Part shown: piece after piece, positions 7,575-18,041 of the stretch
Numbering within the stretch: the stretch's first letter is position 1
Layout of the letters: each line of letters starts with the position of its first letter
Origin: Planctomycetota bacterium
GTDB lineage: Bacteria; Planctomycetota; UBA8742; JACQVU01; JANLHZ01
Reading direction: 5' to 3'
Length of the DNA stretch: 35,940 nt
Assembly: GCA_024653775.1 (NCBI GenBank)
Contig: JANLHZ010000270.1
Coordinates: 1 to 35,940, forward strand
Translations under genes and position numbers: made by a program
Notes under the pieces: model-generated
Told to the model about the DNA's origin: nothing
Database searches by the model: none
Seen by the model: only the letters and a program-made list of their open reading frames with translations

Positions 7575-8261
7575 TCATCTTTCGAGAGCCGTAAGAATTT
7601 CGTCGGAGAGTTTTTCGGAAAGCATCATCGAAGGAGGCTCGATGCCAAGGAACATCACGCCGCGAATATCCGCAAGCTGGTTGACTGTCACCTCGATGTC
7701 GATTCCGGAAACAGAGTCCGATATTTCCTGGAAGGCGACGCGACGTCCTTCGAAGACGACGTAAACAAGGAGTTTGCCGCAGGACGTCCTGTCGAGCCGC
7801 TTCAGCCTCCGCGCCCCGCTGATGAGCCTGATCGCGAAGAAAACGAGGTTCGGAGATGCAAGCAGTATCTCGCCGATCATCCAGAGGGCGAGGCGGATGA
7901 TTCCCATTTCCGACGGATTGATTTCGCGCTTCGGTGCGGGATATTCAAACCTGAACTCCTTTGAACCGCTTTCGGTCCTTTTAAAAACGATCGCTTCGCT
8001 CATCCGGGGCTTCTGAAGCAGCCACGCGCAGACGAACAGCGCGGCGATAAAAATGTAGCTGAACACCGGATCGTACCCGAAGTTCATTAGCTGCAGAATC
8101 GAGAACGTAATCTCTAAACAGACTTTCGTCACTTCCGCGACGACAACCGCGAGGATGAGCGCCCCTGCACACATAAGCAGATTTATCATGGCGTCATTCG
8201 CGGTCTTTTTTTCGAGCCAGTCCTCGATGAGATCCTGATACTTCTTCCCTGACTTTGCCAC
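7575..8261 (-). CDS. Membrane protein of unknown function (tandem paralogue 1)
   Basis: I do not recognise the family. The 228-residue protein has a charged N-terminus (KKYQDLIEDWLEKK), two strongly hydrophobic segments at about 27-55 and 65-80, a soluble middle, a further hydrophobic stretch at about 120-145 and a basic patch (ARRLKRLDR). The C-terminal 75 residues form a separate module: TSCGKLLVY, FQEISDSV, IDIEVTVNQLADI, GVMFLGIEP, LSEKLSDEI. The same module, in the same order and spacing, ends the next gene upstream, so the two are diverged duplicates. The module looks like a small alpha/beta or winged-helix-type domain, but that is a guess. It lies 112 bases upstream of mtaB on the same strand. 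Confidence 0.75.
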   Translation of the reverse strand: MAKSGKKYQDLIEDWLEKKTANDAMINLLMCAGALILAVVVAEVTKVCLEITFSILQLMNFGYDPVFSYIFIAALFVCAWLLQKPRMSEAIVFKRTESGSKEFRFEYPAPKREINPSEMGIIRLALWMIGEILLASPNLVFFAIRLISGARRLKRLDRTSCGKLLVYVVFEGRRVAFQEISDSVSGIDIEVTVNQLADIRGVMFLGIEPPSMMLSEKLSDEILTALER

Positions 8262-8331
8262 GACTGTAATTCCATATTGCGAGGACCTCTGAAGAATATC
8301 GGGTGATTTACAGCGAGATTCGAAACTTCGC

Positions 8332-9021
8332 TCAGATTTGATCTATGACTATTTTCACCTCCCGTGAAAGTCGCTCGGAGAGAGACACCCCCGCCGGCTC
8401 CATGCCTAAGAAAAACACGCCGTCGATGTCCGCGATCTGCGTCATCGTTGTTTCAAGATCGATCTTGGTAACGTTATCCGCGATTTCCTGGAAACTCTTC
8501 TTCTTTCCAGCCGCGGCGAGAAACATCAGCACCCGGCAACAACTCGAAATATCGACCACTTGCAGTCTTTTACGTTTTTTGAGTGTTTTAACGGCGAAAT
8601 ATAATATTTTAGCGCCACTGAAGAACACCGCCGTAAATATCCGCGACGGCAGCGACCCGGATTCAGATTCGTCCGTGCCGAGGTCGGATGACATTTTCAT
8701 TCCGGTAACATTGAAACTGACGTTTTCACCGGAAGGAGCAGTGACGATGATCGCTTCGACGTCCGGAACCTCGCGTTTGCGGGCCTCGTAGAAGATTCCC
8801 ACGATACCGACGAGCGCGATAAAATTTATCGCCATTTCCGGCAGCCCCATTAAATATAGCGGATAGTAGATTATTGTTACAATAACAAACCAGGAGGCTG
8901 TCAGTATGATCAAACTCGCGAGCATCGCCGATGCGCTGAGGGTCAGACAGCGTTTCGCGTCATTCTGAACCCTATTTGCGAGCCACAATTCCATAAGCTC
9001 ATTAGCTTTTTTCTTGCTCAA
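8332..9021 (-). CDS. Membrane protein of unknown function (tandem paralogue 2)
   Basis: A 229-residue paralogue of the adjacent downstream gene, 70 bases away. Layout is the same: amphipathic N-terminus (KKKANELMELWLANRVQNDAK), two hydrophobic segments at about 25-50 and 58-78, a soluble acidic middle (GTDESESGS), a third hydrophobic stretch at about 127-142, a basic turn (KKRKRLQ), then the shared C-terminal module with SSCCRVLMF, FQEIADNV, IDLETTMTQIADI, GVFFLGMEP and LSERLSREV. The start is TTG; I kept it because the residues after it align with the N-terminus of the paralogue. A later ATG at codon 10 is the alternative. No function can be assigned. Confidence 0.72.
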   Translation of the reverse strand: MSKKKANELMELWLANRVQNDAKRCLTLSASAMLASLIILTASWFVIVTIIYYPLYLMGLPEMAINFIALVGIVGIFYEARKREVPDVEAIIVTAPSGENVSFNVTGMKMSSDLGTDESESGSLPSRIFTAVFFSGAKILYFAVKTLKKRKRLQVVDISSCCRVLMFLAAAGKKKSFQEIADNVTKIDLETTMTQIADIDGVFFLGMEPAGVSLSERLSREVKIVIDQI

Positions 9022-15079: not shown

Positions 15080-16504
15080 TCAACTATCCTGAATGTACTC
15101 GATCCCATTTTCGAGACAATACTTCGCCTGCTGCAGTTGCCTCCCGATGTATATCGCGTGACCGATGTCGCTGACGAGTTTTTTCTCTTCGATAATTCTT
15201 GCCACGCGCAGCACGTCAGAGTCCGATATTTCTTCGATAAGCGTTCCGGAACTATTATAGACATTACAGGTGAAAACTCCTCCGTCGATTCCGATCCTGA
15301 AAAAACCGTTCGGATCTTCGACCATTTTGTACCTTCGTTTTTTTAGTATGGTTTGAGCCTCCGATAGCTTGGACGCGCGGATGCTTATACTATGACTTAC
15401 TATAGTTATAGTCCCAACGGGTATACCTGTTGCCTTCGATACTATAGTTTGAATATTTGCAAGACCATATACGTTTTTAAGCCAGGCGCTAAACCCATTA
15501 TGCGCACGATACGTCGCTGAAAGGTGAAGTTTATCGTCAAACACCCTGAAAAACACAGTTACCAGGCAAGGCACCTCCTCGCCGAACGGATCGCTGATCG
15601 GATCCCATAAAGATATGAACGTATTTCTCTTAGCCCGATCATTCTTAAGGTTATCGATAACTATCTGAACCTGATTGACTCCAAAATACTCGCGCATTCG
15701 ATTTCCATAGGTATAGTCCTGGTCGTCCGCCTTTTCCGGACTATACATTTCTCTCTGATAGTTACGTATTTCGTCTTCAGGATAACCCGTGAGCGACAAT
15801 TTCGAATAGTCGCCCGATACCGGATCCTCGACAAGCACCTTTACGTTCATCAGTTCGAGTCTGTCTTCAGAAGTGTTGCCGCCGCCGTGGTTCTGCTTTC
15901 CGAATAATGCAAGCGTATGCAGAACTTCGATATACGCCTCGACTATAGAGGATGCTATAAGCTGGTGGCCGCCGACGAGAGACGGTCTGGACGATGATTT
16001 TATTTTGGGAATCTCGAATTTCGAACGTGGAAATTCTTCCGACGGATCGAACTCAATAGTATTAATTCGCTTCGCGACGTCCTTGATGCTATCGATAAAT
16101 ATCAGTTCGACGCTGGGCGGAATGCCCTTCTCGCCGATAAGCGCGGGAAGTCTTCGATCGGTGGTTCTGAGCGAAATCAGTCGATCATCGTCCGCGAGGG
16201 GTTCGAAATTTCGTTCGTAAAAGTCCTTTATCGAAGCCCGAGAGTTGCCGGCGTCGCTTCCGGTGACGATCAGGTATTTGATCTGCGGATTGTAATGCAG
16301 ATTCGCGGTGAGTTCGGGAATACCGTCGCCGTAGAGATTCGCGATGCCGCAAATTGGGCTGGAATCGGGATCGAGATTGCATCCCGCCGCCTGAAGCTGC
16401 GAAATCACGTGGGGAACCCGGCTCCAGAGCGTCAGAAGCCCGACGACGCCGTGCTCGTTGACGGCTGTGATCTTGTCTGCGTAGTAAACGGCTTCGAACT
16501 TCAT
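15080..16504 (-). CDS. Three-part protein: MtrA-like + thymidylate-synthase-like + DUF4346-like
   Basis: A 474-residue protein whose parts I recognise separately. The N-terminal third (VVGLLTLWS, CGIANLYGDGIPELTANL, NPQIKYLIVTGSDAG) resembles MtrA-like proteins (tetrahydromethanopterin S-methyltransferase subunit A). The middle resembles thymidylate synthase of the archaeal type: C313 in EEVPCLVTVFFRV aligns with the catalytic Cys, though the usual next His is Leu; YRAHNGFSAWLKNVYGL matches the 'RSxDxxxGxPFN' region with changed residues but keeps an Asn; and GIPVGTITIVSHSISI matches the late strand. The last 70 residues (FFRIGIDGG, HAIYIGRQLQQAKYCLENG, YIQDS) look like DUF4346. Ordinary TS activity is doubtful. 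It diverges from the isomerase-like gene across 91 bases, which suggests shared control. Confidence 0.7.
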   Translation of the reverse strand: MKFEAVYYADKITAVNEHGVVGLLTLWSRVPHVISQLQAAGCNLDPDSSPICGIANLYGDGIPELTANLHYNPQIKYLIVTGSDAGNSRASIKDFYERNFEPLADDDRLISLRTTDRRLPALIGEKGIPPSVELIFIDSIKDVAKRINTIEFDPSEEFPRSKFEIPKIKSSSRPSLVGGHQLIASSIVEAYIEVLHTLALFGKQNHGGGNTSEDRLELMNVKVLVEDPVSGDYSKLSLTGYPEDEIRNYQREMYSPEKADDQDYTYGNRMREYFGVNQVQIVIDNLKNDRAKRNTFISLWDPISDPFGEEVPCLVTVFFRVFDDKLHLSATYRAHNGFSAWLKNVYGLANIQTIVSKATGIPVGTITIVSHSISIRASKLSEAQTILKKRRYKMVEDPNGFFRIGIDGGVFTCNVYNSSGTLIEEISDSDVLRVARIIEEKKLVSDIGHAIYIGRQLQQAKYCLENGIEYIQDS

Positions 16505-16595: not shown

Positions 16596-18041
16596 ATGGC
16601 GGACTACAGACCTTACCGCGTCGGCATTCTCGATTTTTCGGACGGTCGCGATTTTCTTCAAAAGCCGCTGGAAGGCGTTTGCCGGGAGTTTCGCGACAGT
16701 CTAAGGCACAAACTGGAAAGCGCTGGATTCGAGGTCCACACCGGCTCTGAGGTAATCTGGCAGAATGACGTCGCGGTCCGCGAGGCGAAATCTCTCGCCG
16801 CCAAGGACGTCGATGCGGTCGTGTTCAACTACAGCGTCTGGGCCTGGCCGCAGTATTCGAGAGTCGCGGCCCAGTTTCTCCCCCAGCCGATCGTGATGTT
16901 CAGCAACGTCAATCCCAGGTATCCTGGCCTCGTCGGAATGCTCGCGGCGAGCGGATCGCTCGATCAGGTCGGGATTAAATTCAGCAAGACTTTCGGAGAC
17001 ATTTCGGATAGTGCGACCTTCGAAACCCTCGCCTCCCAGATTCGCGGCATCGGCGCGGCGCGCAGACTACGTGGCGAAACGTACTGCCTCTTCGGCGGGC
17101 GATCCCTCGGCATCGACACAACAGTGATAGATCCAGCGCTCTGGATGAAGCAATTCGGAATCGACGTCGATCACGTGGACCAGTTCGAAGTCACTCGAAG
17201 GGCGGAAATAGAAATAGCGAAAAACGAAAGAGTGAAACAAGCGTTCGAATATCTGAAAAAGCACGTTAGAAAAATTCATTGGACGAAACCGGACGCCAAG
17301 TTTGTTCTCACAGAGGAACTGCTTCAAAAGCAACTAGGGATGTACTATGCAATGTGGGATATTTGCAGCGAATTCAAATATGATTTCTGCGGCATCAAGG
17401 GCCAGCGGGAAATGACCGAGCATTATGCTACCTGTGACGTTGCGGAGGCGTTTCTTAACGATCCTTATCATCCGACCGGCGAAGCAAAAAGACCTATAGT
17501 TTGCAGCACGGAGGCGGATGGCGACGCCGCTCTTACTATGGAAATTCTATCGAACATTAAACACACTCCCGCGCTGTTTGCGGACGTCAGGCATTATCAT
17601 AGCGAACTCGGAGTATGGGATCTCTGCAACTCGGGCGAGCACGCGACATACTTCGCCACAGGGACGTTCGATCCGATTGCGAATTTAGCAAAAACCGAAT
17701 TCAGACCGGAAGGGTTCTATTTCCCGGCTGGCGGTGCGTCGGTGTATCATATTGCCGCGCCGGGAAAGGTTACGCTCGCGCGTTGCACCCGGCACGACGG
17801 AGAATACGTAATGACCGCGCTGCACGGCGAATTCATGGACTATGGCGAAAAAGAAAACGAACGCGTTGCCGCGATCACTCAAGACAACTGGCCTCATGCA
17901 TTCGCAAAGTTCGATTGTTCGCCAGAGACATTCGTTTCTAATTTCAACGCGAATCATATCCATGCAGTTTATGGCGACGTGATTCCGGAACTACAACAGT
18001 TCTGCGGCGCGGTCGATATGAAATTCAAAGTTCTATCTTAG
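16596..18041 (+). CDS. L-fucose/L-arabinose isomerase-family protein
   Basis: A 481-residue member of the FucI/AraA fold family, which interconverts aldoses and ketoses with Mn2+. Segments include VGILDFSDGRDF, VVFNYSVWAWPQYSRVA, FSNVNPRYPGLVGMLAA and CLFGGRSLGIDT. The metal ligands known from FucI appear present: E306 (STEADGD), D330 (FADVRHY) and H454 or H456 (NHIHAVYGD). It is shorter than E. coli FucI (about 590) and may act on another sugar or have another function. I chose the ATG at 16596 because CCGGAG lies eight bases upstream and the protein begins with a family-like strand there; the frame is open 30 codons further. The stop TAG overlaps the left end of a repeat element (copy 1). 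Confidence 0.85.
   Translation: MADYRPYRVGILDFSDGRDFLQKPLEGVCREFRDSLRHKLESAGFEVHTGSEVIWQNDVAVREAKSLAAKDVDAVVFNYSVWAWPQYSRVAAQFLPQPIVMFSNVNPRYPGLVGMLAASGSLDQVGIKFSKTFGDISDSATFETLASQIRGIGAARRLRGETYCLFGGRSLGIDTTVIDPALWMKQFGIDVDHVDQFEVTRRAEIEIAKNERVKQAFEYLKKHVRKIHWTKPDAKFVLTEELLQKQLGMYYAMWDICSEFKYDFCGIKGQREMTEHYATCDVAEAFLNDPYHPTGEAKRPIVCSTEADGDAALTMEILSNIKHTPALFADVRHYHSELGVWDLCNSGEHATYFATGTFDPIANLAKTEFRPEGFYFPAGGASVYHIAAPGKVTLARCTRHDGEYVMTALHGEFMDYGEKENERVAAITQDNWPHAFAKFDCSPETFVSNFNANHIHAVYGDVIPELQQFCGAVDMKFKVLS

Follow-up and report, generated by a model that had tools for sequence, protein, structure and literature searches.

Synthesis of dTMP is essential and is generally credited to either ThyA or ThyX. 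A gene in the window, by which we mean the whole 35,940-nucleotide stretch of bacterial DNA that was analysed, raises the question of whether a third arrangement should be considered. It encodes a thymidylate synthase (TS)-like domain with an altered active site, set between an MtrA-like and a DUF4346-like part, and the original prediction entertained a C1-transfer enzyme acting on something other than dUMP. Does the middle domain have the structure of a TS? Is dUMP the probable substrate? Is there a recognisable alternative source of dTMP in the cell? What might the flanking domains contribute? Computation shows how the domains are arranged, which residues are present and what surrounds the gene, and that no recognisable second TS, dihydrofolate reductase (DHFR) or Mch was found; functional statements are predictions drawn from homology, residues and context.

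The reading of the protein as an MtrA-like/TS/DUF4346 fusion holds for all three parts (Table 1). The Pfam TS family PF00303 matches residues 258-393 (E=6e-11, 42.5 bits against a cut-off of 24.3). Over its full length the middle domain is matched best by the NCBIfam model for archaeal, methanogen-type TS, TIGR03283, which covers residues 185-375 (E=8e-35) with a score of 120.2 bits, below the curated cut-off of 174.55, and this places the protein outside the equivalog. An AlphaFold model of the fusion (pLDDT 76, pTM 0.51) matches a solved TS in Foldseek (E=3e-13), so the middle domain resembles TS in predicted structure as well as in sequence. At the C-terminus the Pfam DUF4346 family PF14251 matches residues 396-473 (E=2e-13, 51.4 bits against a cut-off of 29.6); the model of this domain (pLDDT 83) gives no PDB fold match at E<=0.001. 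With the window protein alone the N-terminal match to MtrA is marginal (TIGR01111, E=0.07). A profile built from nine homologues, in contrast, retrieves the solved structure of MtrA, 5laa, at E=7e-12 and that of a TS at E=3e-13, and the Pfam MtrA family PF04208 is matched directly by the homologues from genomes G150 and G108 (2e-13 and 1e-7).

Table 1. Location of the fusion gene, its domains and key codons, and of neighbouring genes (positions in the window unless a locus is named)
Feature	Position	Strand	Remarks
MtrA-like/TS/DUF4346 fusion gene	15080..16504	minus	ATG start, 474 aa, exact ORF
MtrA-like Rossmann domain, residues ~1-150	16055..16504	minus	Lacks MtrA cobalt-ligand His84 and Glu54
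TS domain, archaeal/methanogen-type, residues 185-393	15326..15952	minus	TIGR03283, PF00303, Foldseek
C313 codon, equivalent to E. coli TS nucleophile C146	15566..15568	minus	Invariant, 9/9 homologues
N336 codon, at the D169 position	15497..15499	minus	Asn in 7 homologues, Asp in 2
N344 codon, equivalent to uracil-reading N177	15473..15475	minus	Invariant in nine
S374-I375-R376, replacing H207-x-Y209	15377..15385	minus	Residue alignment
DUF4346 (PterinBD-DUF4346) domain, residues 396-473	15086..15319	minus	PF14251; also in bacterial MtrA-DUF4346 proteins
L-fucose-isomerase-like gene, divergent	16596..18041	plus	Likely ATG 91 bp from fusion; neighbour only
ParB_CE genes	L002:4278-4889, L074:8264-8875, L075:8390-9001, L076:3398-4009, L077:10241-10852, L078 about 7901-8500		

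The same fusion occurs elsewhere. The bacterial genome collection yielded one full-length relative, in a Nitrospirae MAG (L002/G294); the phylum of that genome holds five more (G356, G377, G444, G448 and G532), and two (G108 and G150) are found in the phylum of the window genome. These eight full-length homologues, nine proteins with that of the window, are spread across two phyla, the genomes returned by the two phylum searches showing no overlap. Accidental fusion and misassembly are both ruled out by the identity of 34-39% over the full length to those in the other phylum. In the tree one side of a branch (support 82/81) holds all nine. The seven with an altered active site, namely the window protein and the six from the G294 phylum, form a clade with 100/99 support, so the alteration most simply happened once; placement deeper in the tree is unsure because some end branches are long. 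A viral origin was considered and rejected, since a scan of viral contigs gave no relative, and the matches among phage and plasmid records were all to ordinary TS and covered the query only in part. In the open literature searched, DUF4346 is not mentioned and the fusion is not described.

The fold and catalytic core are those of Escherichia coli ThyA (PF00303). C313, R293, R333 and N344, equivalent to C146, R126, R166 and N177, are invariant in all nine fusions, and the nucleophilic cysteine, phosphate-binding arginine and uracil-binding asparagine are likewise common to the TIGR03283 enzymes, from which the fusion differs in being flanked on both sides and, in the window protein, by replacement of D169, H207 and Y209. 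As predicted, the catalytic cysteine is kept and the adjacent histidine lost: the H147 position is L314 in the window protein and Leu, Ile or Met across the nine. Throughout the seven-member clade D169 has become Asn, and H207 and Y209 have become Ser or Gly and Asn or Arg, respectively. Relative to ThyA, the TS part is also compact and the genome is one in which no DHFR was found.

D169 is commonly assigned to the folate side of TS rather than to dUMP. The proposed residue changes are correct in outline: the H207/Y209 and D169 replacements are real, and the asparagine that reads uracil is kept. Among the fusions only the outlying members, from G108 and G150, retain Asp169, His207 and Tyr209, which makes a canonical dUMP site the simplest ancestral state. 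The other TS-family proteins examined from the window's phylum keep His207, and nearly all of them Tyr209.

Does the cell have another TS? The window genome is 96% complete, and searches with PF00303, ThyX and TIGR03283 found in it no ThyX, no other PF00303 protein and no second TIGR03283 match, that is, no canonical thyA or thyX apart from the fusion. The same searches found neither ThyX nor a second TS in G294, G356 and G532. Full-length ThyX accompanies the fusion in G444 and G448, and a second, divergent TS-like protein does so in G377 and G108, so their roles do not strictly exclude one another. Within the G294 phylum, 234 of the 290 genomes that lack the fusion have ThyX, as opposed to two of the six that carry it (Fisher p=0.017, a value that ignores relatedness among the six). 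ThyX (PF02511) is a flavin enzyme of unrelated fold, whereas the role proposed for the fusion and the DHFR-less setting are the same. In G150 the sole ThyX match is an 86-residue N-terminal remnant, and the ATG of the fusion directly follows its stop codon (L052:3692-5446); it looks as if the fusion has replaced thyX, or rather its 3' end, in situ.

Other neighbours also bear on the substrate. Four genomes (G294, G356, G377 and G444) have the gene order dCTP deaminase, HAD hydrolase, ParB_CE, fusion, and in G108 a dCMP deaminase lies 3 bp upstream of the fusion. Both deaminases feed dUMP synthesis. Such neighbours and the truncated ThyX, together with four genomes, that of the window among them, in which the fusion is the sole recognisable TS, favour synthesis of dTMP from dUMP. 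The ParB_CE protein (PF24392, 203 residues) is conserved and encoded directly upstream in all six G294-phylum genomes and is absent beside the fusion in the window genome, G108 and G150.

On this basis the fusion is probably a dTMP-forming TS of the ThyA fold, the main or only TS of the cell, standing in for ThyX. Bacteria of two phyla would then apparently depend on a divergent enzyme of the ThyA fold that has become part of what was once a B12 carrier. If dTMP is indeed the product, the H207/Y209 and D169 substitutions show that TS residues regarded as nearly fixed can be rebuilt in nature. Three observations point the other way, namely the loss of these residues in the window clade, the lack of DHFR in all nine genomes, and the presence of ThyX or a second TS-like protein in some.

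Our inferences about substrate, donor and flanking domains are as follows. C313 would add to C6 of dUMP, which would be held by R333 and R293 at the phosphate and by N344 at the uracil; a methylene group from a tetrahydropterin would be transferred to C5 and then reduced. The donor is probably folate, as no methanopterin marker was found. Methanopterin itself is not supported, since Mch (methenyl-H4MPT cyclohydrolase, the marker used) occurs in none of the nine fusion genomes and three archaeal controls were positive. The TS domain would sit inside an MtrA-DUF4346 protein, of which the MtrA part, lacking the corrinoid ligands, and DUF4346 probably serve as a scaffold or pterin-docking part.

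The main rival, itself unlikely, is a change of substrate. A TS-fold enzyme might have shifted to another nucleotide or product, for example to UMP or CMP or to hydroxymethyl formation in the manner of MilA, the CMP 5-hydroxymethylase, with dTMP coming from salvage or from some pathway that goes unrecognised. Such a shift fits the disappearance of D169 and of the ribose-binding pair H207/Y209 from a single clade with 100/99 support, the conserved ParB_CE directly upstream in six genomes and the co-occurrence of ThyX in two. MilA, a relative with the TS fold, is among both the structure and the sequence matches, and it too lacks the histidine after the catalytic cysteine. The comparison nevertheless cuts both ways, because MilA has Asp at the N177 position, where the fusion keeps the uracil-selecting Asn, and retains H207, Y209 and D169. 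A shift would moreover leave four genomes with no recognisable TS, the dCTP and dCMP deaminase neighbours supply dUMP, and there was no sign of a phage or base-modification context. The suggestion of a substrate other than dUMP is accordingly possible though not favoured, given also that the outlying fusions keep the dUMP residues.

How might the pterin be recycled? The ThyA-type reaction normally requires DHFR. Members of the one DHFR family searched for, PF00186, were found in none of the nine fusion genomes, against nine of 14 controls. A survey has bacteria without recognisable DHFR mostly using ThyX, not ThyA (PMC1971073), and the fusion genomes without ThyX also lack a recognisable DHFR, so that the usual pairing is broken in them. 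Two options follow: dihydrofolate is recycled by a different reductase, or it is not released in the reaction at all. FolM and a DHPS-fused reductase are known alternative dihydrofolate reductases (PMC1971073). If dTMP is made, the absent reductase makes pterin recycling directly testable.

Two bolder readings go further. One, which we regard as improbable, is a third route to dTMP, in which a ThyA-fold synthase with rebuilt nucleotide and folate sites would work free of DHFR, the MtrA-like part with its dead corrinoid site and DUF4346 forming a new pterin module by which the release of dihydropterin is either avoided or dealt with. The other, improbable to much the same degree or slightly more, has the two flanking parts take a direct part in delivering the C1 unit or electrons, which would amount to a third kind of chemistry for TS, one that yields no dihydrofolate. 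The missing DHFR, set against the controls, and the missing Mch agree with direct delivery, as do the retention of the flanking domains in all nine proteins and the altered folate-site Asp in seven. The corrinoid ligands, however, are gone, reductases other than FolA such as those just named exist, and DHFR is often absent from ThyX lineages, hence its absence may predate the fusion.

The MtrA-like part speaks to the origin of the protein. In MtrA, His84 is the cobalt ligand and is linked to Glu54 (PMC4915002). None of the nine fusions has an equivalent of either residue, which makes a role as B12 carrier unlikely, and the proposed corrinoid methyl-carrier function is rejected. A corrinoid methyl-transfer protein with a passive TS domain, which MtrA homology might suggest, is for the same reason very improbable, the more so as true bacterial MtrA-DUF4346 proteins keep the two ligands and the TS catalytic Cys, Arg and Asn of the fusions are invariant. 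These bacterial proteins (NF002128-like, ~400 residues) are encoded in many G294-phylum genomes and begin with a Cys-rich segment, after which come an MtrA-like domain and then DUF4346, these two in the same order as in the fusion, with the cobalamin-site Glu and Gly-His retained and no TS domain. They are the likely frame for the insertion, and the fusion looks like such a protein into which a TS domain has been placed. Loci of this kind (L060-L070 and L073) have the Cys-rich N-terminus, and most of the host genomes also carry ThyX.

The divergent, sugar-isomerase-like neighbour in the window is real, matching the L-fucose isomerase family PF02952 (E=1e-36). The further idea that it was acquired jointly with the fusion finds no support. 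The gene lies beside none of the eight homologue loci, some of which are on short contigs, and no conserved co-occurrence was thus found. GC content is 48.5% in the fusion, 52.4% in the isomerase gene and 49-51.5% in the next three genes, compared to 54.8% for the window; the lower values run well past both genes, taking in others as far as about 21.4 kb, and do not mark the pair as a unit.

Several other TS-type proteins came to light. A TS-like protein of G377, of 214 residues and very divergent (L079:4887-5531), adjoins a DNA polymerase III alpha-like gene. Unfused TS of the methanogen type are present at L015, L017 and L018 (G030, G051 and G057), in bacterial genomes without ThyX. A divergent, unfused TS family in the window's phylum (L019, L024-L027, L029, L030, L032 and L038) carries the motif WRSRD.YKAWF.N.(F/Y)ALTDLQ followed by (S/A)DS(F/L)H(I/L)YGS. 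Finally, open reading frames of ~540-610 codons that resemble tandem ThyX, each with a pair of weak ThyX matches lying apart in the same frame, are found in G001, G002, G020, G022, G024, G037, G039, G040, G041 and G056 and in many G294-phylum genomes, and constitute the sole TS-type match in several genomes of the window's order and phylum.
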